From assembly GCA_002205965.3 (NCBI GenBank), contig NADL03000002.1, forward strand, positions 1,116,001-1,180,000: 64,000 bases of DNA, written 5' to 3'. Source of the DNA: Kappaphycus alvarezii (lineage: Eukaryota; Rhodophyta; Florideophyceae; Gigartinales; Solieriaceae). This document shows positions 3,545 through 61,578 of the stretch, piece by piece; positions within the stretch are counted from its first letter, which is position 1; every line of letters starts with the position of its first letter. The notes below the pieces were generated by a model. It did not search any database. It worked only from the letters and a program-made list of their open reading frames with translations, and was not told where the DNA came from. A program made the translations under genes and the position numbers.

Positions 3545-5486
3545 CCAACGACATAAAGCCATCGTGGCTATCTCGCCTGGTTCTCGAAACATGGTCGGCC
3601 CCTTGATCGCCAGTCAATGCTGTCTCAACTTCCAGCACTCGCTCCTTCTCTGGCCCGCTTCGTGAATATGATATACGGTCGTACTCAGCCACCGTTGCTT
3701 ATACCGAATCGCCAGAACACGGTCATCTCTAGTGCTCAGGGCACCCAGCAGGGCGACCCGGCCAGTATGTTGCTGGTTTCACTCACGATCCAACCACTAA
3801 TCCGGAAAATCGCCGAGGACAGCAACATTGTGCTGAATCAATGGTACGCGACGACGGAACCCTCCTAGGGACACTCCAGTGTCTGCGCTGTGCTCTCTGC
3901 CTCCTGCAAGCAGAGGGTCCGGCTGTTGGTCTCTATGTCAACGCGAGAAAGAAGCGCATTCACTGGCCGAACACGCTCCTGCCGGACCGCACGGACTTCC
4001 TCCGCAAATTTCCTCTGTCCGAGAGCTCGCGCGACGGCTTCGAGCTCCTAGGAGCGCCGATGGGCAACCGGGCCTTCACCGATGCATACTACGGGCAAGG
4101 TCGAGGGGTGCCGCCGCACCTCCGACTGCTGACCCACGTTCGTGACCCCGCGCCCGTTTCCACATGCACCGGCTGTGCGCGTCGGCATGCCTCGTCACCC
4201 ACGCGTTCCGGCTCGCCGACCCACAACACTCGGCCCCGCTGCACAAGCCTTTGACGCCCTGCAGAGGTCGTCTTACTCGGAGCTACACGGGATCGCCCTC
4301 ACAGACACTGCATGGGACCAAGTCACGCTACCGATTCGCCAGGGAGGTCAGGGATTTACCCTCATCTCCCCGTTCCTACACGGCTCGGTCGCAGCTAGTA
4401 TCATCGACGCGGTTCCGGCACGTGAGAGATCGGCATCGTACCCACGCAACGTTCTGCCGCCGTCTCGGTCACCGATACCGGGGTGACAGGGCGTTCCTGG
4501 TCCGACAAGCCTTGCCGCGAATCCGTGACTTCCTGCAATGTATCCCTGGGCGCCCGTACTCCGTCGAATTGGCCCATTTGACCCAGCCTGCTTGCTGCCA
4601 AACCATCCAACCTCCAAACCTTCTTAAATGGTGTGCAGCAGGAGGCACAGGCAAGGTCCACTGGCGTGATGACTCATGGGTGACACACCCCAACCCGGCT
4701 CAGCACAGCACTCAAGAAGTTCGACATCGGATTCGTGGCCTGGCGTTCCGGAACAGCCCCGCCGCCGCTTTTCTCATCGCTCACCCCACAACCGCTACGG
4801 TGGTGTCCTCGGCCCACTGGCAGACCATGATCCGCCGGCACCTCGGCCTCCCCGTATATGACGACTCCCGCCCGCTCACCTGCGCCCACTGCAACCAAAC
4901 TATGGACGCACTGGAGACCACGCGGCGGACCTTTGCCCTGCCGGCTTCGGCCGCCCGCACCGCCACAACTCGCTACGCAACGTTTTCGCCTACCACGTTG
5001 CTCGCGCTGCGGGCCTGGACTGCCAATACGAAGTCCCGCTGCTTGTCCCGGGAACGAATATCCGCCCTGCGGACATTCTCATACAACCCCCCCCCTGCCC
5101 ACAGGCCAACAGGTCCGCCCCATAGCCTGCGACCTAACCGTTGTCTCGCCGTTCAAACAAGGGTGCGCACAAGGGCCACACAAATGGCCGGCGGCGCCGC
5201 CGACATTGCCCACCGAGACAAAGTCAAAGACCTGGAGCGCAAACTGGTACGCCGCATCCCCCCCCTTCGCACAACACCCTCCAGGAACCGAACTTCAAGT
5301 TTCAGCCCCTGGCTTTCGACTCCCTGGGTGCCCCATCCCCCGCCTCCATTCTGTTCCTCGAAGACTTCATCCCGCGCATCGCAGAGAAGCTCAACACAAC
5401 CACAGCAGTGATCCGCAGACGTATTTATCAGCGCATTAGTTGCACACTGTGGTCTTCTGTTGCAATGGCGATTCTATCGCGAGCCC
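3545..5486 (+). mobile_element. RLE-class (R2-like) non-LTR retrotransposon, 5'-truncated copy 1
   Basis: Plus-strand frames form a chain of RT palm, thumb, Cys/His finger and nuclease-like domain. The palm at 3617-3868 has AQGTQQGDPASM (RT motif 4) and ends NQWYA; the following frame, from 3841, begins with a DDG, so the YADD catalytic box straddles a one-base frameshift. The C-terminal part in frame 4164-5527 has RRHLGLPVYDDSRPLTCAHC with a CxxC start of a Cys/His finger, then RPADIL (around 5080) followed about 17 residues later by CDLTVVSPF. The R-P-x-D ... D-x-T spacing is what R2-type restriction-like endonucleases (PD-(D/E)XK fold) show after a CCHC finger. The 5' part of RT is missing, as in abortive target-primed copies. 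The C-terminal frame crosses several frameshifts. It is followed directly by two copies of a ~70-bp tail repeat. Confidence 0.72.
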
Positions 5487-18759: not shown

Positions 18760-21700
18760 TCAACGAATCACCAGTTTCTTGGTCTACACCCATGTTTCGA
18801 TGAAAAATACAGTTTTCCAGTGCTCACTGTTTGGCGAAGCAAGTATTTCTCTTGTTTACGCGTTACTTTATCTGTTATATTTTGACTGGATCTTATCCAA
18901 ACAACACTAATGATCTATCCGTCCTTGAAGGCGAGTCGTATGTAGTAGATCTTTCTCATGAGGTAGAGTTGGCGTAAACGCCACGACGCTGTTATGGTGT
19001 CAAAGATGCTCTTCGAATCCGTAAACAAGAATATCGCTACCCAGATTTTCATTTTCTTGGGTAACATCTTGAGGCTGATAACGTGATAGAAACCATGAGA
19101 AAAAGCGTAAGTTTCTCTAGCCAATATAGTTATTTTTATGAGTTAGGGCTTCTCCGAAGTCCAATTCAGTATATGAAAATTGTATTCATTGTCAACGAGA
19201 CAGATGATTGCGCCCAGTTGACTTGTAGCGTCGTGATTGATTTTGTATCTACTATCAACAAATGCATGTAGTTTCAGACTTTTTGCTTCGAGACACTTGA
19301 ACTTGAGTATCAGTTTCTTAGTGCATTAGATGTGCGAGACAGCGTCCTTAAGTATTTTAGTACGTGTTTTAGTTATGGCATCCTTTTTTACTTGAAATAA
19401 TTGCGCTACATGGTACGCAATGTCAAGCTAGAAACTTTGCGCGATAAAACGTTTGTTGGTATCTGACTAGAACACTCTGTGTGGTATATGTGCGTGGCAT
19501 TAATGCGGGTCAGATTGCTAATATGCTGATTTTGTGAGAGCGTTATCAGGTCTTCTTTGCGGGAAACCGGGGGACCAACGAAACGAAAAGGAAATTGCTC
19601 TTCTGTTCTAGTGAGAAATTAGCTATATGATGTTGCTCAAGTTCTTGATATGCGGTTTTTTCATTGTCGATGAAGTCATCCGTTGCAATTCCTGCGATAT
19701 CTCTTGGTGCATTATCATCAGAACGATAAAGAAGAAAAGGATCAGACGGGAAGGACAACACGTTCAGCTTGTAATTTAGGAGCGGATATTATGCTTCAAA
19801 GGAGCGCGAACTCGACTCTACCAATCCATAGTGTGGTAGTTTAATTTTTAGGACTTTTTTCCAGTGGCGCAACCTTGCCTCCGGTAGTGTCATTGTGTAA
19901 AAGTCAAGCTACAGTGGTTTGGACTTCATTTTAGGCTAATCCACATCCCTCATCCTCAGCACGACACCGGAAAATGTCACAACGAGTGATACCGTTACGC
20001 GCAACATCATAATCATTAACATATTTGAGTCGTTCGCGATCTTATTTTGATATTTATCGTGGTTCCCTTGCAAGATCCATCCTGGTTTGAATCTCTGTGT
20101 GATTTTCCCCAGATTCTTAATGAAGGTTACGAATCTGTTTCCAATAAAGTTAGTCCACGGGCATGTCGCTCATGTTCACTGGCTTGACGCCACCATTAGC
20201 TGCAATTCTATCAAACTCTTTTTGCTTGCTCTCGGTAAAAGTTGGTTCTTTGGGTTCGTGATATTTTTTCGACGTGATTGGCATGAATCGTGTCAGAGCT
20301 GACGTTTTTGCTGGTTTCAACAAGCCACGTATTAGCAGGTATAGTATCTAACAGGGCTTTATCATTATATTTTATCGAACATGTTTTTGTGCCCTTTGTC
20401 GTTGAAAAAGACAGACATCGTCCGCCTAAGTAGTGAATAACCGAGATTTGCACAAACGACTCCCATGCAGTACAGGAATCCTGTTTTTTTGAAAACAGTG
20501 GTGCGAGAGAAATGAGTCTACTGAAATACAGTGTGCAGGATAAGGGTGTTCCTGGTAAACAAAACATCGATCGCAACATCATAATTAAATTATTATGATC
20601 AGGAAGGAATGTCTCTACACTGCTCGGCTGCTTTGAATACAGATGATATCCATAAAAAGAATTTTTGAACATTCTGTAGTTTTTCCGAGTCCGTAGCTTT
20701 TTTCTCTATCATTTATGCTATGCTCAGTGCGCTTTATACTGCTCCAGGAGGTGAATTTCTGATATTAATGTAATTTTTGGCAAGCTCTTACTTCTAAAAA
20801 ATATTCTTTCTTGCCCTTTTGTTTGTAGTATAGGTGTTCGAAGCGAAATATGAGTGGTATCACAATTCCAAGTCTCTTGAAGGTCAAAGTGTAGTTCTGC
20901 AGATCTTTTTCAGTCATCACGCGCAGTTTAGTCTGTGTAGTGATAGTAAGAAGCATTGGTATATCATTTGAGATGCATGTGGACACGTAATCAAAGTATG
21001 AGCGTGCAGGTAGCCGCACTCTTATTTTGAACCCTCGGAGTGTATGCACTCTTATCTTATTGTATCCTTGGCCGCCGAAAGATACGTACATTGTTAACAG
21101 CTGTATATCGTAGAAGCGTGTGGGATGTTGGTATGCGCCAAGGAAAGAAAGCCATTGTGAAACGCCGATTACTAACTGCTGAGCTCCTTCGTTCAATGAA
21201 AAGACGTAAAAATTACTCGTGTTTCAGCCAACAATTCTTAATACTTGTCGAAAAGTTTGTTCAAATAAATGGGGAAGGGCCGTGGTTTTGTGCTGAGATA
21301 ACTAGTGCCTGGGATTAGTAAGTTCTGTGCTGGCGAGATACCATAGAGATACGAACAAGATCTCCTGATTTTATGGCTGAACTTTTGCGCTTTTCTTCTG
21401 TTCTGCTCCCGTTACTTCCGTAAAGCTACAATAGTGAATTGACGTGGCCACTGCGGAATGTTGTGTGTTTGCGGTTCGGTGGTGTCGGGGTGGTCCGGAT
21501 GTTCTCTGTCTTCAGATGCGCAGTGTGATTGTATATCTGGACGATCTGGTCACGCACTGTACAGATGTTGCCCTGAGTTACAGAATGAACAAATAAGAGG
21601 CTTCCCATCGGGTCCATTTTCGTTTCTCACGACCGAGAAAGTCACTCATCGTTGAAATCGATTGATAAGTGGGCTAGCCATTGCACTATGGCTCGGTCTA

Positions 21701-50398: not shown

Positions 50399-52081
50399 TT
50401 AACGTGAATACACACTCGACTCTTTCTGATGTTGGATCAAGTTCTTTGTGACCCATGTAAGTGGAACCCTATCAACCCAGGCATCCGGGGTCATATCCAA
50501 CCTGTTATTCTCAATAAGGTTATCTAGGGCAAGGCAGAGTTTTCCTTTTGTAAGTCTGCCTGCCTGATTTTGTCCTATAAGTATCCAAGGGACATCCCTG
50601 ACTTTACGTATCTCATTTGATTGGCGCATCGTGTTGAGATCAACAAGAAGTCGTTTTTCCGAGGTATATTTAGCCATAACATGCAATCATAAAGATTCTT
50701 GGAGTCAGTGAATATTTGTAATGGTACCATCTTTCCGAAGATTGAGTTAATAGTCAATCGCATAGAAGTGGCAAAATCGAAAACCTGAAACTTCCCTACC
50801 CCTTCGCTCGCAACTACACACAAGTACGCGCAAGCATGCGTGCACTGCTGTACCATTGGAATCAACTCAGCTGCCAATACACTCTGGGCAACGCGTCGGG
50901 CCTTCACACTCGCATAGTGAATACTACTTGCTTTTCCGTGGCAATCCATCAATGTCACAAGGTAACCCAGCTGAGAGGATTGATCTTTGTAGGTCGCAAA
51001 ACTTGCATCAACGAATAATACAGCTGAGAGAGACTTAATATCCAATTTGACAAAATTCAATCCGTTTTCAAGGTTGTACTTGCAGCATTGCATGTATTGG
51101 TTCAATTGCTTACAATCGACTAAAAAATGATCTGTGATCTGAGCAGCAACTGCAAACCTGAAAGATATGTCCGGCGTACAGATTGCAGCGATGTAAGATA
51201 CTCGTGCAAACTGAGATACGAACTAATCTTTAGATGGCTTTTACTCATTAACGATAGAGAGCTTCCTAATATTCTCTGGCTGTGTGAGGAGAAAGTTTGG
51301 TCCATTCTTAGATATCTTACCCCGTTAAACTGGACTGATGATCTTTCTTCAATAAATGAAGCGTCTTTATACTTCAAACGTGATGAGCCAGCTTTTCCCA
51401 TTCTTACAAATTTCTGATTAGCTGCAGTCATTGTGTCATCGGTTTGCATGCACGTAGTTTCCCTGGGACGACTATGAAAATTTGGGCAATGTCTTGCTGT
51501 GGCAAAAAAATGCTCTTATGAAAGTATAGTAAGCATGAATCATAGACTGAGGGCACTTTACAAATTGGTTGGTGTGGTGGGAATGATAGGTCAGATACCG
51601 GTGAACCCCTGCCTCAGAGATACCATACAGAGGCTTTGTAATTTTCCATAACACTCCCGTGGGAAGTTTTAAGATATCCGGAGGGCGCACATAAAAATCA
51701 CGGTGCATAGGTGTAGATGATTGAGTATATGCCTGAGATATATCCCCGGTGAATATTTGCAGAGTCGGATCAAGCGCCATAATGGCCAATAGTAGTCTCT
51801 GGGAGGCATGTTGTACAATAGGGGCGTATGTAAGTAAGGATGACATGTTTCGTGTCATAATACGCTTGAAAGACAAGTCTGGCTTTCTCATAGGCATCAA
51901 GAGATCCTTCGTGTTTCATCTCATCCACGAGATGACTACCATAAATGCGGCGTTCATTTGCATTGCGGTTAGAAACAACCTCAAAAACGCCTTGTGACAT
52001 TAGCTCATCAATCTCTTTCTGCCTGGACTCATGGAACCTCTTGTGATTCTTCGATTGAGGTTTCACACAAATGGTCAACAC
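50399..52081 (-). mobile_element. Ty1/copia element B, RT-RNase H half
   Basis: Minus-strand frames in copia order. 51770-52081 is the RT N-terminus (RQKEIDELMSQGVFEVVSNR, YEKARLVFQAYYDTKHVIL). 51472-51900 continues with IFTGDISQAYTQSSTPMHRD, FYVRPPDILKLPTGVLWKIT and KPLYGISEAG. 51120-51449 is the palm/thumb with MQTDDTMTA (frame-shifted neighbourhood of the DD). 50575-51105 is RNase H: LSAVLFVDASFATYKDQSSQ, LGYLVTLMD and LQIFTDSKNLYDC. 50399-50686 is the C-terminal end (KRLLVDLNTMRQSNEIRKV, then WVDRVPLTW). Well preserved apart from frame changes. The matching protease-integrase half lies at 60173-61578 on the same strand, separated by the complete element A. Confidence 0.85.
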
Positions 52082-52978
52082 ATCAACTAGTTCAATAAAA
52101 TTCTAATCATGGGTAAAAGTGGATGATATAAGTGCATGAGTAGGGTACACGAGGGATGCAAAAGGAGTTTTCGTGTTAGTTCCCTCGTGTCCATTCCTGG
52201 AGGGTTGAGTAGTCACAATGAAGCGCTTAACAACAGATGTGCGAAAAGGTGTTGGGCCACTTGGTGGTTGGACATTGTATGTTTGTTTCTCCCTCTATGC
52301 CTAGCAAGGAAAATAGGCCATCCTAGCAGTCCTTTTTAGGCCTTTATACGAGAAAATGTGAACCAATTGGTGCAGCATGGATGTCAGAGATATCTGAGCA
52401 CTTGCGGACCCTTAGCGCTGATCGCACTCGGTGCTTTGCGGAAAAATTCTTTACCTCTTTAGTAGCTTGTTGAAGAGCAGCGTTGTTTTGGTAAACGGAC
52501 TTAGAGGGTCAGTCAGTTGGAAATCCCAGCCTAGGTAGATCACTGTAGACGGGTAACGTGGGCACGAAGCCATCTGGTCCGACAAAATCGTTCATTCTCT
52601 TCACCGCAAATCTGTATAACAGCGTCATCATCAAGTTGGGAAACCGCGGATTTAGTCACTGATGACGAAACGGTCACTAGCACCTCTCGCCACTTTAGAT
52701 TAAGGCCAAATGTTGTCATAACAGTTAATAGACGAGCCAGTGATGTCTTGGCTGTTCAGGGCACTCATGTGGATCGACACGTGTAGGCGGTGGCAGTCAT
52801 TTGGAATGCTATGCGCGATGTGAGACGTGTGTGTGATGGAAAACGCATGGGTGATAAGTGTAAGCTACAGGTCCACCTTTGGTATGACACGTGATTGAAC
52901 ACTTCACATGTGTGCAACTGACATTACCACAATTCGCGTCCGCCGGCGTTGATTGATCTTGATGTTGAAAACAGAGGA
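52082..52978 (-). other. Presumed integrase-RT spacer of copia element B
   Basis: No long open frame. It lies where the variable region between integrase and RT of element B should be, and ends at the target site of element A. Identity is inferred from position only. Confidence 0.4.
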
Positions 52979-52983
52979 GATTA
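52979..52983 (+). repeat. Target-site duplication GATTA (left)
   Basis: GATTA directly before the TG of the 5' LTR; identical GATTA at 60168-60172 directly after the CA of the 3' LTR. Confidence 0.95.
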
Positions 52984-53285
52984 TGTCAATTACACTGTAA
53001 TGCATTAATCACACTACGTTTCAAACGCAGTCTTGCACACCTTTGCATGTACTAATATCTACGAGCTCAGCTCCTCCCAGGCCGACGGAAAAAAAGGGGA
53101 CCATCATCGAGAAGTTTTCGCTACGTCTGATTCCGCAGAATCCGTAGCTCTACCCACGCCACAGCGTCGGCCCTTCTCGCCTGGCAAAGTAAAATTTTAC
53201 TCTATCCTTCCTATCTTTGCCGTTGATACTAAGGCTGATTGTACAGTCTTACAACAGCAGCCAGTAGAAGTGGGAAAACACGACA
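52984..53285 (+). repeat. 5' LTR of element A (302 bp)
   Basis: Begins TGTCAATTACACTGTAATGC, ends GTGGGAAAACACGACA, with TG...CA termini. The first 20 bases contain an inverted repeat (TTACA/TGTAA). Matches 59863-60167 almost base for base. Confidence 0.95.
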
Positions 53286-53459
53286 ATCCGGATTCTTTTC
53301 CGCACTCTACTGCGCCGATCTAGTTCTACTTCTCCAAACCCCCGTCAATATCGAACTCGCCTCTCAAAATACCCGTCTTCGTTTCGAACACTTGACTTTC
53401 GCAAAAGATCGCCGCTTTCCCGCAATCAGTTCAAGCACAAGTGTGATCAGATACTCAAA

Positions 53460-55230
53460 ATGATATCAACTTCGTCATTGAGTGATGATTTACCCTCTAA
53501 GATGATGAATGCTGCTAAGGCCACCATCGAGTACTTCACAGTCCCTGAACCTCCGTCTGGATCATCATCTGAAGCGTCCTCTGCTTTACCTGATTCTGAA
53601 AATTGCCGAATACATGGCGGATCTGCTTCCCGCGCCGCAGAGAATCTTTGCTGAAGAGTATTTTTCGATGCCGCTGCTACCAGTCAAGGTATTGTTTAAA
53701 GTCGCTGAGCTATATGGTTTTCATGAGATCCGAACGAGTTTTTGGACAGTGTCAGGCTTTCTGTTCCAGATAAGAACGAGAAAGTGATCCATACGAATTT
53801 GGCTTTGCCTTGTGAACTGCTCTCCCGAATTTACACAAGCCGTTGTTATGAGGTTAAAGGAGCATCGCGGTTTAAATGAGCGTTTAACGTCCATTAACAA
53901 CCCCATGGAAGCTTGAATGAACCCGCAATTCAAGCGAGGCACATCGTCCTGCCGCACAAGATTCGGATGGAAATCATGGTCATCCTCGCCGGTCCTTCGG
54001 TATTCCCCCGGCTGGAGGAGCAACACCATTTGTTGCAAATCCGTCTGCAAGCCCGGATCAGGATCTCCGCATGGATAATCCTAATCTCGACATGAACTCG
54101 CATCCAAGCCCAAACCCGACTAATACTCGGCAGTCACCAGAACGGATCGGATGATCCTCGTAAGGTGAACTATGTACAAGATTTTAAAGACAGCAGATTC
54201 ACTGGAGATATATCACAAGACATCAATGAAACACTTGAGATGTATGGCATCTGTGCTCGACAGTACAAACTATCTCCCTCCCAGAAGGCAGATTTTTTCG
54301 TACATATTCTTGACGGTGCTGCTCGTCGATTCTTCTTACAGAATTGCAACAGTGCTATGAACTTCACTGAAATGGTCAAAGTAATGACAAGTGAGTATCT
54401 GAGTGATGCAAGGCAGATTCAAGTTAAGGGATCGCTCGAGACACTTCGTCTTAAGTCATTTATGCGCGACAAGGAGATTAGATGTATCTGATGGACTCAC
54501 GAAACTTGTGAACACATCAATGAATCACTCCGCATGCCCTCCTGACTTTCGTACCGACGCCCACAAGACCGATTTCTTACGGAAAGCAGTGACAGAATTT
54601 CAGGAGTGGTCTCGAATTCCCATCCAGAGTATCTCATCTCAGAACTACTCCTTTAACAAGTTCGTGACGACGCTACACGAATCTATCCAGAATCTACGCC
54701 AATTCAAGCAGCTGACAGGTGAAAATCGTGCTTTCGAAACTGGAATCGCGCATCAAGATGAAATGGGCACGCATATGATGCGTTATGGTCGCAATCCGCG
54801 CTATTCTCACCGGGACTATAACAGTCGTAATAAGAGAAAGCTTGCCGACAACCGTGGTGGCAGGCGCTCTTCGAAGACTTTTGAGGAAGCCAGAAGGCGA
54901 AATGAATGCATTAAATGTGGAGGCCCTGGAGTCCAAATCACCGTTGCAAGAAGGAAGATCTCGCTGCTCACACTCGCCATCGTCTGGAACGTGGAGACTC
55001 TTCCGTTCACATACTTGCTGACATCATTAAGGATCAGGATGAAGGTGATGGTACTCACAGCAGTGATTCTGAGAAAGAAGGAATTGCAGAGGAGTCCACT
55101 GAGCTGCAGGAATTCGACGCGCACTTTGCCGACAATGAAGGTCAGGATCAGGATGCGATTGAGTCAGCGGACACCTCTATTTTCCTTTCACAGCTCTCGT
55201 CCTCGATGGCACCTACTGCAACGTACATAA
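53460..55230 (+). pseudogene. Element A gag with zinc knuckle
   Basis: Starts at 53460 or at the MMNAAKATIEYF Met just after; Ser/Pro/Glu-rich N-terminus. Frame 54165-54491 is the capsid-like part (VQDFKDSRFTGDISQDINET, LSPSQKADFFVHILDGAARR). Frame 54403-55230 continues with TEFQEWSRIPIQSISSQNYS and FNKFVTTLHESIQNLRQF and reaches the knuckle NECIKCGG, completed in the shifted frame by PWSPNHRCKKE (CxxC...HxC). An acidic linker (54915-55313) leads towards the protease. At least four frame changes. Confidence 0.8.
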
Positions 55231-55359
55231 GCAATTCCGTGGAGGATTTCGTTCAGGCGACGGGGCCCTACAGTAAAACGTTCTGCACGTTTTGCGCGCC
55301 CGCGTCGCCGTAAGTATCTGAGCAAAAGCCCGAACCAAAATAGATGGAAGGATGTCTGG

Positions 55360-55680
55360 ATGAAAGATGTATACGTTGGAAAACTAAAGGCTGAAACGCG
55401 TAATCGACGACCTTTGGGAATGCTCTGTGATACTGGAGCACCTTCGTCTGTAGTAGGTCGCAAGGAGCTCAACCGAATCTGCAACATTCTTGGAATTCAA
55501 GGGAAGCGTATTTTACCTTCACGCAATCGGTTTCGATTTGCTATCACACGTATAATTCTCTTGGCAAAATAGCACTTCCTATTGATGCCCCTCTTGGCGT
55601 TCCGAGAATCTCGGTAACGATGGACATTGTTGAAGCTAACATCCCTGCCTTACTCGGATTGGACGCCATGGACAGTGAGT
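55360..55680 (+). pseudogene. Element A aspartic protease
   Basis: Frame 55360-55572 contains MLCDTGAPSSVVGRKELNRI, the DTG(A) active-site box of retroviral-type proteases. The shifted frame just after (about 55600-55680) reads VTMDIVEANIPALLGLDAMD, the 'D+V..++P.LLGLD' flap and C-terminal strand. One frameshift near 55560. Confidence 0.85.
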
Positions 55681-55690
55681 CCATTACCCC

Positions 55691-56825
55691 GTGTACCGTC
55701 TCGAAATACTTGTGAAAAGGATCCCGCACGTAACTAAGGAAGGGAACACCGTCTACTTTGACGAATGGTCAATTCCGTTGATCAGGTCTCGTAGTTCCCA
55801 CCTCTACATCCCGATCCGTTTCTCCAGTGATATGTACTTCACTCAGTCGCAGTTATCGAAATTGCATCGGCAATTCTTCCACCCGACCGCGCAGAAGCTG
55901 TACGACCTGATCAAGAGATCTCGCCTGAGGAAGCGACGCCTGAAACACTCAAGACGCTCCAAGAAATATCAAAGCGCTGTGACCCATGTCAAAGAATTCA
56001 GCATGCTCCGATAAGATTCCGCGTGACGCTCGGAGCTGAGAACGTCAGGTTTAATGAGTGCGTCATCATTGATATTATGTACATTGACAACGAGCCAGTG
56101 CTTCAATAGTTGATGAAGGCACAAGATTCAGTGCTGCCCGCTTCCTACCGAGTGTGTCAACTGAGGATATCTGGAAAACCATTGTCAAATGTTGGGCAGC
56201 CGTCTACACGGGGCTCCCAAACAAGATCCTAACCGATCAGGGCTCCCAATTCGGGGAAAAATTTCTGCACCTGGCGCGAGCATCCGATGTCGACGTTGGT
56301 AGACTGGAGTGGAAGCACATTCAAGTCTGGGTTTAGGAGAAAGGTATCACGAACCGCTTCGAACGACCTTCCGCAAAATTAAGGCCTCGCACCCTGATGT
56401 TGACAAGAAACTTGCCCTCGCTTGCGCGGTGAAGGCGATGAATGACACTCTGGGACCCGAAGGACTCGTCCATCGGCCCTTGTATTTGGTGAATTCCCGC
56501 AATTTTCCTTTCCACTTGAACCGCCTTCTAGTCGCCCAAGCCTCACTAAACGAGCAGAAGTCGCCCAGATTGCTCGCAGGGAGATGGAAAGCCAGATGCT
56601 GGATTGAAGCTCCGACGTGCACTACGCCATGCCGTACCGCCGTCTAGCGATCGAAGCTACCAACCCGGGGATAAGGTGCTGGTCTGGCGGGAGAAGCAAA
56701 TCAATAACCGTATCGGGGAATGGCTAGGCCCTTTCGAGGTCGAAGGTGTCGACTACCAACGGAAGCTTGTATTTGTTCGAGATCAGCCAAACAAACCTGG
56801 CCGTATTCAACGTTGCACAAGTTAA
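55691..56825 (+). pseudogene. Element A integrase
   Basis: The HHCC domain opens in frame 55691-56014 (SKLHRQFFHPTAQKLYDLIK) and closes in the next frame with CDPCQR. First catalytic Asp in FNECVIIDIMYIDNEPV (about 56050-56105). Second in NKILTDQGSQFGEKFLHLA (frame 56154-56336). The Glu in GLGERYHEPLRTTFRKI (frame 56309-56647). So the D, D and E are all present but in three frames. The C-terminus reads SYQPGDKVLVWREKQINNRI and GEWLGPFEVEGVDYQRKLVF (56604-56825), typical of copia. Confidence 0.88.
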
Positions 56826-57039
56826 ACCGTATTTCACCCCCGATCATTTATCGCACGCATTCATGATGGATCTCGACAGTAGTTTGGCCAAGTTCCGATC
56901 CCAGACGGGATTGATATTATGGCGACTGAGATCATTCCCGACCATGACGAACGGGCCACCAGCTCTGAAATGATAGAAGCCAAGAAAAGGGAAATTCGCG
57001 GACTATTGGAACGCGGGACCTTCAAAGTGATCCTTAAGG

Positions 57040-58445
57040 AAGAAATTCCGCTGGATGGGAATGTACTACCAGGACGTTTCGTGTTGCAATAAAGTCAACT
57101 GTGGATGGAAAAGTGAAGTATAAGGCGAGGTATGTCATCGGAGGACATAAAGACAAGATGAAGGATCTAATGGTTCACATCCTTGGCTACTCTCAACACA
57201 TCCGGTACGCCTGTTACTCGCCCTCGCAGCTGCTTTTGGATGGGATGTTTGGACAGCAGATATTACCCAGGCCTATTTGCAATCTGCCGAGCCACTCGCA
57301 CGACAGGTGTTTATCGACAAGCCAGTCCCGGAGTTCGAGCTCAGTCCTGAGCAATGCCTTCAATTACTCCGCCCCCTTTATGGCTTTGCGATGCCGGCGA
57401 TCTATGGCATGCTACGCTGGACAAGCATCACCGCCACGACCTTGGGATGAAGCCGTTTAGGATGGATCCCGCACTGTACTACCTCCTTGCCGACGGACTA
57501 CTGAAGGGACTCAGTGGTAACTACGTTGAGATTTGCTACGATGTGGAAAAAGGAGTTCAAGGAAGTCTCGAAGAAAACTAATGAGCGCTTCGAGATGGCG
57601 GATGACATCATTACCGACAGAATTTACTGGTTCATACTCAACCAAGAGAAGAATGGAGATTTTGTCATCGACCAGAACGCTTACTGAGGAAGCTAGAATG
57701 TCTACCTGCGGATGCATCGTTCAAGCATTTCGTTCCATGCGCATGAAGCTTGCTTGGCTCTCTAACTCTCGTCCGGACTGCGTCTTTGAAATTTCACAGC
57801 TCGCACAAGTCACAGAAAGCATGTTCGAGGGACAAAAGGGAGTCTTTATCCGGAGGATAAACAGGGCTATAAAATATGCAATCGACAATAGAGTCCAACT
57901 TCGGATGCGGAGACTCGACCGAAACTCTCTCAAGATCGTCGGGTTTTCGGACTCATCGTTCGCAAATAACGCCGACTTGTCATCGCAGTTGGGATATGTA
58001 GTATTCCTTGGAATGAACAGGGAAGGTTGCGCCCGTCTCTTTCAAGTCGTACAAGTCGAGGCGTGTAACAAGGTCGGCAATGTCCGGAGAAGTCATTGCT
58101 TTTAGTGACATGTTCGATGTCGCAGCTTCGCTCTCGCAGGAACTCGGGACTGTTTTGGGGAAGTCCGTCCCGGTTCAGCTATTCACAGATAGCAAGAGTC
58201 TCTTTGATGTCATATCCAAGGGGTCGCGTACCTCGGAGAAACGCACCATGCTGGACATCGCCGCAGCGAGAGAAGGTTTCCGAGACAGAGTGATTTCAGA
58301 TATTGGTTTTGTTCGGAGTAACAAAAATGTTGCAGATGGACTGACAAAGGTGATGAGTCAAGCCGTGCTTCGAAATGTTGTCGCAACTGGGGAGCTCAAT
58401 GTGGTACCGGATCAGTGGATAGTGAGATCGCAAGAGGTAACTTGA
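57040..58445 (+). pseudogene. Element A reverse transcriptase-RNase H
   Basis: [22 protein letters not shown] (57101-57460 frame), then in a shifted frame [40 protein letters not shown] and RPLYG. The catalytic YVDD box at about 57520-57535 reads NYVEICYD; adding one base restores NYVDDLLRCG, so it is hit by a single-base shift. Thumb and RNase H: IVGFSDSSFANNADLSSQLG, YVVFLGMNREG (57533-58105), then VPVQLFTDSKSLFDVISKGS and RTSEKRTMLDIAAAREGF (58080-58445), ending at a stop at 58443-58445. All copia RNase H landmarks are present. Confidence 0.9.
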
Positions 58446-58689
58446 TGGGCATCTTTCTTTCAATCTACTTTTGCTCAACAACTTGTCTAACCTCTGCCAG
58501 TTCGAGGTTAATAGGATCTGGCCCGCCACACATGCGCAGACTATTGCCGCACAAACGAATGGCAAATGTCTCGGCAGGATCTAAAATAATCCCCTTGTTC
58601 GCATTAACAAGGACACAATGGTCCACCCCCGACCGGAGTTGCGCACAAGGCGAACTAACCACACGCCATGTCTGAGACTACCGATCATG

Positions 58690-59694
58690 TCAAAGGCGCG
58701 AGCTTTCCGATTTTGGTGTAATTCCTGTCGGGATGCAGGCTTGCGCAACGCAACTTAAGCCCAAGACTCTGGACCATTCCTCCCACCTGTCCGAGGTTGC
58801 TGGTTTTCCATTTGATTGAAGGAGTTTCTCCATTGCGACCTTGACCCCAGCTTTGCCTCTAAAATATTGCACTGCATGAACAATCGAGGAAAGGCACACA
58901 GTCCAGTCTTCCCCCATCTGGATGACATCGCTGCATCTCGGATCGCTGTATTGGACTAGAGCTGGATTTGGTTGTCGACTTCCAGGGCCCCGACCAGTGA
59001 TGACGGCAACACCTGGGTTCTGCTTACAGAACTTCAATATTTTCTCCACTACGAAGTGGTTCGCCCCACGGTCCAATGCCACACACCTCAGTGCTCTCCT
59101 GTTGCTAAGAGTGCACTCACCTGGTGCGTCACTTATGGACGCATCAACACTTTGGTCGGGAACGAAACCGGGCGTGCACCACAATCTGGCGCCGTTAATG
59201 ACCGGTGCTCAATCTCAAAGTAACTCATGGCGTCACTGACAGACGTCTGGCATCCGTACCATGTCCCCTTCTCAAGTTGTTGAGTCCCTGCTGTCATCCC
59301 ACTACCGAGCACTACCCCATCAATTTCATATTGGGTTCTGTCAATGACAAACACAAATTCTTCCGTCGGTGGGGGTGTACCTGTCGGTTCGTCAGTGGTG
59401 ACTGTAGCGGATCACCACTATCCCTGCAGTCAATGAGCTTTTCCTGCTCCACACTTTCTGGCACATTTGAGTTGCTAGGCGTCGGAGCAAGATCCACATC
59501 TTCGTAGTTGCCGCTGCATTCAATTCGGTCAAGGTAGTGGCATCCGGTTCTGTATCTGCGGGTACGCTGTTGTCAACGATCACGGAGAACCTTGACTTCT
59601 TGCGCGGACGCGCCGTGTTTGGGTCAGGACCTACGCGCCGTGCCATGTCCGCCCTTGCCTGCTGTGCAGGCCTTCCGTTCATTGCACGCACCAT
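58690..59694 (-). CDS. Antisense open reading frame chain inside element A, unknown function
   Basis: Between the RNase H stop (58445) and the 3' LTR (59863), the minus strand reads as a coherent protein of about 330 residues across four overlapping frames: 59392-59694 (start; basic, with RPRKKSRFSVIVDN resembling a nuclear localisation signal), 59312-59497 (linker), 59133-59354 (VVLGSGMTAGTQQLEKGTWY, GCQTSVSDAMSYFE) and 58690-59184 (LRCVALDRGANHFVVEKILK, then GVAVITGRGPGSRQPN and CLSSIVHAVQYFRGKAGV). The plus strand here lacks gag/pol homology. The two 'C..S(S/V)...A..YF' segments look internally similar. I recognise no family. It would be read towards pol from about 170 bp inside the 3' LTR boundary, so an antisense LTR promoter could drive it. 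It could also be captured host sequence. Confidence 0.5.
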
Positions 59695-59862
59695 GGTTAA
59701 GAGAAGGAAACAAAGGAGACAAAGAAAAGGTCAGCACGATCAAACTGGCATCCCCCGGAAGATAAGCCGTCGATCGTGGGAACGCAGCCTGGTGTCACTG
59801 TGGTAATCTCGATCCTACTATTGTACAGTGCCATGCAAAGAGTGCGCTTGGCATTGGGGGAG

Positions 59863-60167
59863 TGTCAATTACACTGTAATGCATTAATCACACTACGTTT
59901 CAAACGCAGTCTTGCACACCTTTGCATGTACTAATATCTACGAGCTCAGCTCCTCCCAGGCCGACGGAAAAAAGGGGGACCATCATCGAGAAGTTTTCGC
60001 TACGTCTGATTCCGCAGAATCCGTAGCTCTGCCCACGCCACAGCGTCGGCCCTTCTCGCCTGGCAAAGTAAAATTTATTCCTCTATCCTTCCTATCTCTG
60101 CCGTTGATACCTAAGGCTGATTGTACAGTCTTACAACAGCAGCCAGTAGAAGTGGGAAAACACGACA
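59863..60167 (+). repeat. 3' LTR of element A (305 bp)
   Basis: TGTCAATTAC...AAACACGACA, preceded by a TTGGGGGAG purine tract and followed by GATTA. Differs from the 5' LTR at an A/G in the A7G4 versus A6G5 run, an A/G, a T/C, and small indels (TTTTACTC versus TTTATTCCTC, TACTAAG versus TACCTAAG). Confidence 0.95.
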
Positions 60168-60172
60168 GATTA
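60168..60172 (+). repeat. Target-site duplication GATTA (right)
   Basis: Identical to 52979-52983; marks the integration site of element A. Confidence 0.95.
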
Positions 60173-61578
60173 GAAGAAAAGGTACGAGTGGGGACTGAGG
60201 TTCGAAGACAACAAACCAAAAGGTCAGATCGATCATTTGATTCATCTGTTCAAACTACCTTTGTCAACTATAGTCACATTGAAAGCCTTTTTTATGGTTT
60301 TATGGTACCGCTCCACATACGTGCCCTAGTTAGGGCTCTCGACAGGTACCTGGTTAGTGCGGATATGTAAATGATTTAGCTCTGTTTGGAATGCCTTCGA
60401 CATTAGATGCTTCCCTTGATCATAAGTAATGACCTCTTGGGTCCGAGGTAAGTTTCGATCCAGCAAAAGCGGATTACTCCCCAAACAGAAACTGCTGAAA
60501 CACTACCCAGCCAGCGGTGAGCTTGATATTTTTTGGACTCATCAACTACATGAAGCACGAGTTTCTTCAGTAGAGTAAATGTGTACACGAATAGGTTCTG
60601 ATTAAAATGATTTTCATCCTTCAATATGAACTTGAAACGCCTAGTTTTCTGTGCGTAACTTTTGCATGGGTGGTAGGAGCGGAAGATTTGCTCCAGAATT
60701 GACATCGTAGTTGAGCCGGCCTTTTCAATATATGCCATGCGCAAAAAATTAAACAACTTACTAGCGCTGGGGTGGCCGACCCGTCAATGGAGGCGTTGGA
60801 GCTCAGCCCTTGTATATAAGCATTCGTAATTAGGCTATAACGTAAGAGGCCATGCCCAAACTCCTAGAGCCAGCAAATTTCTTACCTGTTTCAATATGGG
60901 TGAGATGATCAGTGATTTTGTTGTAGTAAATGCCCATGCATTCCATGTCAGATGGACCAATTATTACAGGTAGATCCTCATCGCTAATGTGAACGACAAA
61001 GAACATTACAAAATTTACAAAAGGGAATTTGATTAGGGCTGTAATGATTGATTGATCAGATTTTTCCAAACGTAACTTCAGCATTCCTGGACTTTGCAAT
61101 ATCAGGTCTCAACCCTACATGCCTGCAGTATGCGTTTTACTGGGCGATTCCTGAAGTTATCCCTCTAGCACCTCTAGGGTCTACCATGACTCCATCATCT
61201 GAGTAGCGATTGGTCTGGTAGACCCCAGAAACAAATGCGTGGATAGCCTTTGAGTCATGTAGATTTGTAATGAATGAGCTAACATTTCCGTGATGCTCAT
61301 CAATACCGTCAACATCATCCTTCAAAGACATAATTCGTTCAAATCAGAAAGCGCCAATTGACAGCACATGTGCTGTATATCCTCGAACTCATTTATGACA
61401 GCGTCTTCCTCCTACGAGCTGCCTTCCTGCAATCAGCTTCCTCTTTGAAGTACACCTTATTCTTCATAAAACATCCATTCGTTCCAAAATTGAGTGGTTG
61501 GTAGATCAGCATCCCTCTTGTTGACATACAAAACAATTCTTTTTCCTGTTCTTTGATGTGCGTAATTTCTGTCAACAA
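60173..61578 (-). mobile_element. Ty1/copia element B, gag end-protease-integrase half
   Basis: Minus strand from right to left. 61393-61578: C- and K-rich end of gag (NGCFMKNKVYFKEEADCRKA). 61137-61331: protease start with SDDGVMVDPRGARGITSGIA, corresponding to 'G.MVDTGA.RG...G.AQ' with the usual DTG reading DPRG. 60830-61099: rest of the protease (LKLRLEKSDQSIITALIKF, DLPVIIGPSDMECMGIYYNK). 60403-60756: integrase core with RFKFILKDENHFNQNLFVYT, KLVLHVVDESKKYQAHRWL and RFCWIETYLGPKRSLL. Further left, near 60270-60330, a shifted frame reads ERYHKTIKKAFNV, the integrase Glu region. It runs up to the GATTA target site and continues beyond element A at 50399-52978. Confidence 0.8.

Follow-up and report, generated by a model that had tools for sequence, protein, structure and literature searches.

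Antisense accessory genes located between pol and the 3′ long terminal repeat (LTR), termed aORF-3R, have been described in the retrotransposons Grande of maize (gene23), RIRE2 of rice, Retand of Silene (ORF4/TRP28), PvRetro13 and Boty of Botrytis; in the available parts of these sources, the encoded proteins have no clear similarities except for SMC and TRP28 domains, and Retand is a Gypsy element (PMC7264820, PMC11963269). Enzyme-type extra genes beyond gag and pol are also retained by LTR elements of bdelloid rotifers, with open reading frame 3 (ORF3) products that include a GDSL esterase and a DEDDy exonuclease; these enzyme families are unrelated to the one considered below, and no antisense ORF3 is seen in the accessible part of that report (PMC5408684). 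Here, we describe an antisense accessory gene (‘ASP’) in a 64,000-nucleotide stretch of the red alga Kappaphycus alvarezii (assembly GCA_002205965.3, contig NADL03000002.1, positions 1,116,001 to 1,180,000, forward strand; this whole stretch is called the window, and coordinates refer to it). The gene occupies the minus strand between the LTRs (59694–58465) of a Ty1/copia element spanning 52984–60167, LTR to LTR, with pol on the plus strand, and by position it belongs with aORF-3R. It is protein-coding and common to several diverged families of one Ty1/copia lineage.

As far as the accessible portions of the aORF-3R reports go, the likeness comprises the same position and orientation, many copies and a deep origin. 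The own promoter and the nuclear protein have been reported for Grande, whereas for the Kappaphycus gene both are conjectural. By contrast, the named examples come from land plants and a fungus and carry TRP28, SMC or no domain, whereas the present gene resides in a red-algal Ty1/copia element and has a predicted papain-like fold. The other examples (Grande, RIRE2, PvRetro13 and Boty) are gypsy elements. Among the titles and abstract openings surveyed in the open-access literature, there was no description of a cysteine-protease or papain-like antisense gene in retrotransposons, including those of red algae, and within that scope the combination of an aORF-3R position with a papain-like fold appears to be undescribed. 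It would widen antisense accessory genes beyond the named land-plant and fungal cases, and suggests that such genes may include counter-defence proteins.

Open reading frames, tblastn matches and the homologous frame in other copies delimit the gene to about 410 codons (58465–59694, minus strand), from an ATG at 59694 to a stop at 58465–58467 that lies 19 bases from the pol stop, so that the two genes stand tail to tail. The initial annotation had read a chain of minus-strand open frames here as one protein of about 330 residues ending at 58690; the frames are present and do read as one protein from the ATG, but the homologous frame runs on to 58465–58467, giving about 410 residues. In the window copy, the gene is broken into several frames, as is pol, and the protein of a near-identical copy (L003) matches it in six tblastn pieces. 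L003 itself has 370 open codons counted from the ATG, of which the final ~14 are in a frame absent from the other copies, and a distant copy (L028, 44% identity) has 354. None of 40 loci has the full gene in a single open frame, which may reflect decay of every sampled copy or additional breaks from assembly indels.

These 40 loci come from DNA searches of the 336-Mb genome (884 contigs). The first search, in which 40 of 53 candidates were scored, gave at least 65 matches. Besides the window itself, these comprise three copies with 98–99% identity and others at 64–81%, except for two stretches of 46–47 bases at 91% that are confined to a noncoding block upstream of the gene. With a diverged copy as the query, a second search gave 29 matches, including a family of seven at 92–100%. 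The best protein pieces of diverged copies align to L003 with ~37–74% identity. All loci were recovered through the antisense region itself. Pol and the antisense gene are convergent in 38 of the 40; in the remaining two (L010 and L039), pol was not found within the fetched stretch. In L033, one member of a pair of 300-nt repeats with 98% identity, presumably its LTRs, is separated by 189 bases from the ATG (at 5149); the 9-kb stretches of L029–L032 yielded no such pair. Distant protein relatives on other contigs (the P0005–P0009 set) match the antisense product. When the distant alignment served as the query of a third protein search, in which the 7998 candidates that shared most words were scored, P0006, one of this set, was returned again and nothing else; no relatives were found in viral contigs or prokaryote genomes. 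The earlier proposal of an antisense accessory gene in this family is borne out: the gene moves with the element lineage, and we regard it as extremely likely that it is real and carried by the element.

Purifying selection acts on the antisense protein between families. In a codon-position test over eight loci, mismatches at antisense positions 1, 2 and 3 numbered 49/219, 33/221 and 116/221 for L003 versus L005, and 55/217, 40/220 and 113/219 for L003 versus L008; between families, changes at position 3 are generally about two to four times as frequent as those at the other two positions, of which position 2 is usually the slower. Equal substitution at all codon positions, which the initial annotation had held to be incompatible with a gene, is therefore not what is seen between families. 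Neither close copies (L001–L004; L005 compared with L007) nor the pair L006 and L008 (~11% apart) show the bias, which is what neutral decay following insertion would give. The ratio of nonsynonymous to synonymous differences per site (pN/pS) was compared for 18 open pieces in all different-family pairs sharing at least 80 codons (69 pairs, not independent of one another, as pieces are shared). The antisense frame has a median pN/pS of 0.40 and is the lowest of the six frames in 67 of the 69 pairs, the other four frames apart from the mirror sense frame having values of 1.04 to 1.48. As the pieces had been picked as open in the antisense frame, their lack of antisense stops is meaningless, but the substitution pattern is not produced by this picking.

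The corresponding ratio of substitution rates (dN/dS), computed for five pieces of the antisense gene, lies between 0.10 and 0.31 (in the six pairs, out of eight, for which dS is finite), in agreement with the earlier expectation of a minus-strand value below 1. For eight pol pieces, it is 0.04–0.10 (15 of 23 pairs). dN is higher in the gene than in pol in most family pairs (A–D, 0.351 versus 0.143; A–B, 0.197 versus 0.073–0.114), with B–C as an exception (0.072 and 0.198 versus 0.169). The pattern is that of an accessory gene: retained, yet under looser constraint than the replication enzymes. Families B and C (L005 and L006) also differ less at silent sites in the gene (0.40 and 0.43, over 106 and 109 codons) than in pol (0.75, over 302 codons), a difference that an exchange of the 3′ module between the families, through template switching or recombination, would produce.

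Papain-like proteinases (SCOP d.3, clan CA) are described as sharing a core helix with a Cys at its N-terminus, a His on strand 2 and a polar residue on strand 3 (PMC10318531, in the part available). Structure prediction, with seven proteins and 53 open pieces as input, gave for the distant relative P0006 a confident model with a papain-like cysteine-peptidase domain at its C-terminal end, in which the core helix has Cys287 at its N-terminus, strand 2 carries His382 and Asp395 takes the position of the strand 3 polar residue. Its best structural matches are solved papain-like members, namely the C39 domains of PCAT1 and ComA, staphopain, AvrPphB and YopQ. The predicted core has a Cys-bearing helix and helices flanking strand 1′, followed by the His and Asp strands, the arrangement given for cluster I (PMC10318531). 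Residues 1–269 of P0006 were barely probed by the fold searches. For the window lineage’s own copies, structure prediction gave no usable fold (predicted local distance difference test score 35), so that the assignment rests on P0006.

Alignment to residues 270–432 of P0006, together with its model and fold matches, places the domain at about 58465–58950 (minus strand; limits approximate). Upstream of it lies a well-conserved segment, HFVVEKILKFCKQNPGVAVITGRGPGS (58978–59058, minus). The end of the Cys-helix segment, SIVHAVQYFRG, is at 58855–58887 (minus), the Cys itself being in a shifted frame in the window copy, and the candidate His (58618–58620, minus) and Asp (58579–58581, minus) codons fall in VDHCVLVNANKGIILD, close to the C-terminus. 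Over mostly broken copies, the Cys is conserved in 24 of 28 rows, the His in 25 of 26 and the Asp in 20 of 24, whereas P0005 has neither Cys nor Asp. C39 peptidases have a Gln six residues ahead of the Cys; at this position, the oxyanion Gln is not conserved here (3 of 28 rows, with 10 of 28 having it one column upstream). Pfam scans of the antisense protein and its relatives gave nothing better than E ~0.03 and, with filters that remove most matches above E 0.1, no match to the C39 family (PF03412); no fusion to an ABC transporter was found by Pfam in P0005–P0009 or in the window gene. The Kappaphycus protein thus differs from C39 and other papain-like proteins in lacking detectable sequence similarity, an ABC transporter and a conserved oxyanion Gln, and in having an extra N-terminal region of ~250 residues. 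By its predicted fold, it is papain-like; by sequence, it is not a C39 member. A faint papain/C39 resemblance had been suspected in the initial annotation; the fold predicted for P0006 supports the suspicion, but RCVALDRGANHF, the motif given there, precedes the Cys helix. On the strength of this model, the antisense protein very probably has a papain fold, and the chances that intact copies are catalytically active appear evenly balanced.

Two other matches were considered. Sequence searches of the PDB aligned 33–57 residues, about one helix and a strand, to mL43, a protein of the mitochondrial ribosome (best E values 0.013, 0.51, 1.4 and 0.015); these were set aside as probably due to chance. 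In a viral structure library, the sole match of the P0006 model below E 0.001 was to the unnamed protein G8DGE4 (E 9e-4, probability 0.99), with TM-scores below 0.3, a root mean squared deviation of 32 and a poor superposition; the match is not interpretable, and a hint of a viral source is possible.

The upstream region contains a conserved noncoding block (59729–59775, minus strand), aligned across families in 23 upstream regions, which may be an antisense promoter or leader. An ungapped 31-mer scan over the 40 loci found at most eight mismatches in 31 loci, 9–10 in five (likely single-base shifts) and 13–15 in four (counted as absent), so that the block is recognizable in 36 of 40, the mismatch counts being stated without a chance level. 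By eye, several copies have a TATA-like, AT-rich sequence ahead of it, oriented antisense, and the block is as good a candidate as the 3′ LTR, which the initial annotation had proposed, for the start of antisense transcription; the regulatory role proposed there is likewise conjectural. No other DNA in the region is as conserved, although the block is noncoding for the antisense gene; its plus strand, GGCATCCCCCGGAAGATAAGCCGTCGATC, is alternatively readable as a short sense peptide, GIPRKISRRS.

The mechanism that we envisage begins with an antisense promoter that would drive the gene from within the 3′ LTR or from the ~170 bases separating it from the ATG. Nuclear import of the protein might then rely on RPRKKSR, a basic stretch in its N-terminal part that belongs to RPRKKSRFS (59584–59610, minus), a conserved candidate nuclear localization signal; such entry is suggested by a basic stretch ending in [KR][KRQ]SR, which 18 of the 19 open pieces from the N-terminus have (counted by eye; the exception is L023). 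In the nucleus, the papain-like domain could cleave a host or element protein, or strip a modifier off it. The most plausible target would be a host restriction or silencing factor, a ubiquitin-type modification or the integration complex, with a gain in the element’s success. Overall, we consider it probable that this copia lineage carries a convergent, selected, papain-like accessory gene that aids the element. That its role is directed against the host or lies in integration, rather than elsewhere, is put forward tentatively. More doubtful still is the fully specified version, in which the product of a separate antisense transcript would be a nuclear enzyme with real activity, either a papain-like protease or a ubiquitin-type deconjugase, and would inactivate a host factor for silencing or restriction; the module may also have been exchanged between families. 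If true, this would be a counter-defence enzyme, the retrotransposon counterpart of a viral accessory protease. A predicted enzyme fold with a visible Cys–His–Asp set makes the function of an antisense product testable through a single Cys.

Several alternatives carry little weight. The antisense frame might merely mirror the codon bias of a sense-strand gene: the sense frame sharing its third positions has the second lowest pN/pS (median 0.50, lowest in 2 of 69 pairs), and the sense strand is open over 179 and 168 residues in L005 and over 168 in L007. However, it is in the antisense frame that position 2 is slowest, as in real genes, the mirror frame contains 315 stop-bearing codon pairs (summed over the 69 non-independent pairs), and it is to the antisense product that the distant protein relatives are similar, so that a sense gene is refuted in practice, no separate search for a sense protein family having been made. 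Alternatively, the antisense RNA could be what matters, for example as double-stranded RNA limiting copy number, the open frames being incidental. Noncoding antisense transcripts are known in other LTR elements, as noted in the available part of PMC7264820, and the conserved block upstream of the ATG would fit, but the codon-position bias, pN/pS and conserved relatives on other contigs all point to selection on a protein, which largely refutes this idea as the whole explanation and leaves it very unlikely. Equally improbable is a captured host gene hitch-hiking in one element lineage to no benefit of the element. The same source documents capture of host genes by LTR elements (PMC7264820); here, however, silent sites between families are at or near saturation in most comparisons while purifying selection persists, which indicates that the gene has been kept over many rounds of transposition.

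A stronger competitor, to which we would give somewhat less than an even chance, retains the papain-like fold but not the peptidase activity: the protein would be a pseudo-enzyme that binds nucleic acid or a ubiquitin-like protein and regulates the element, in line with proposals for Grande gene23 and Retand TRP28. The loss of Cys and Asp in P0005, the unconserved Gln and, in the accessible parts of the reports, the discussion of published antisense accessory proteins as nuclear or DNA-binding (PMC7264820, PMC11963269) favor it, yet the retention of Cys, His and Asp in mostly broken copies exceeds what a dead site would be expected to show. An active enzyme might instead have been selected to process the element’s own Gag-Pol, or host proteins within the particle; from what the accessible literature conveys, several plus-strand RNA viruses use papain-like and OTU-type proteinases on their polyproteins. 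This role is improbable, given that the gene would need a separate transcript and that the conserved basic stretch suggests a nuclear location. Moreover, copia elements carry their own aspartic protease.

The element that carries the gene is a real, young LTR retrotransposon. Repeat search and mutual alignment define a 5′ LTR of 302 bases (TG...CA; 52984–53285, plus) and a 3′ LTR of 305 bases (59863–60167, plus) with 97.7% identity over 305 aligned columns, and direct reading shows a 5-bp target site duplication, GATTA, at 52979–52983 and 60168–60172, as well as a polypurine tract, GGGGGAG (59856–59862, plus), adjoining the 3′ LTR. The pol region from reverse transcriptase to RNase H (56970–58445, plus; stop at 58443–58445) was placed by tblastn and RVT_2 and has broken frames; an open pol stretch of L004 maps to 56970–58349 by tblastn, and the last pol ORF of the window is 58080–58445. 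The Pfam model RVT_2 matches pol of near-identical copies (L004, 2.7e-16; L003, 1.9e-20). Reverse transcriptase type, TG...CA LTRs, short target duplication and polypurine tract are together those of Ty1/copia. In Ty1/copia elements, integrase is encoded ahead of reverse transcriptase; Pfam integrase models did not match the upstream pieces 55691–56011 and 56309–56644 of the broken window copy. An Rfam scan of 52900–60300 found no family. Two further copia-type pol stretches lie in the window on the minus strand (50680–51846 and 18858–19421), with ~28% identity to the lineage studied here; tblastn with two gene proteins as queries found no second antisense gene within the window.

Among the copies, the window element (L001) and that on C14 (L002) have no substitutions over ~840 bases of the antisense region and share frame breaks that L003 and L004 lack, which suggests very recent sister insertions from a broken source, or a duplication. 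Two matches of the first DNA search, G000:C809:588466-589369 and G000:C530:2025103-2026006, have the same score, identity and span, and are perhaps a duplicated segment or an assembly duplicate.
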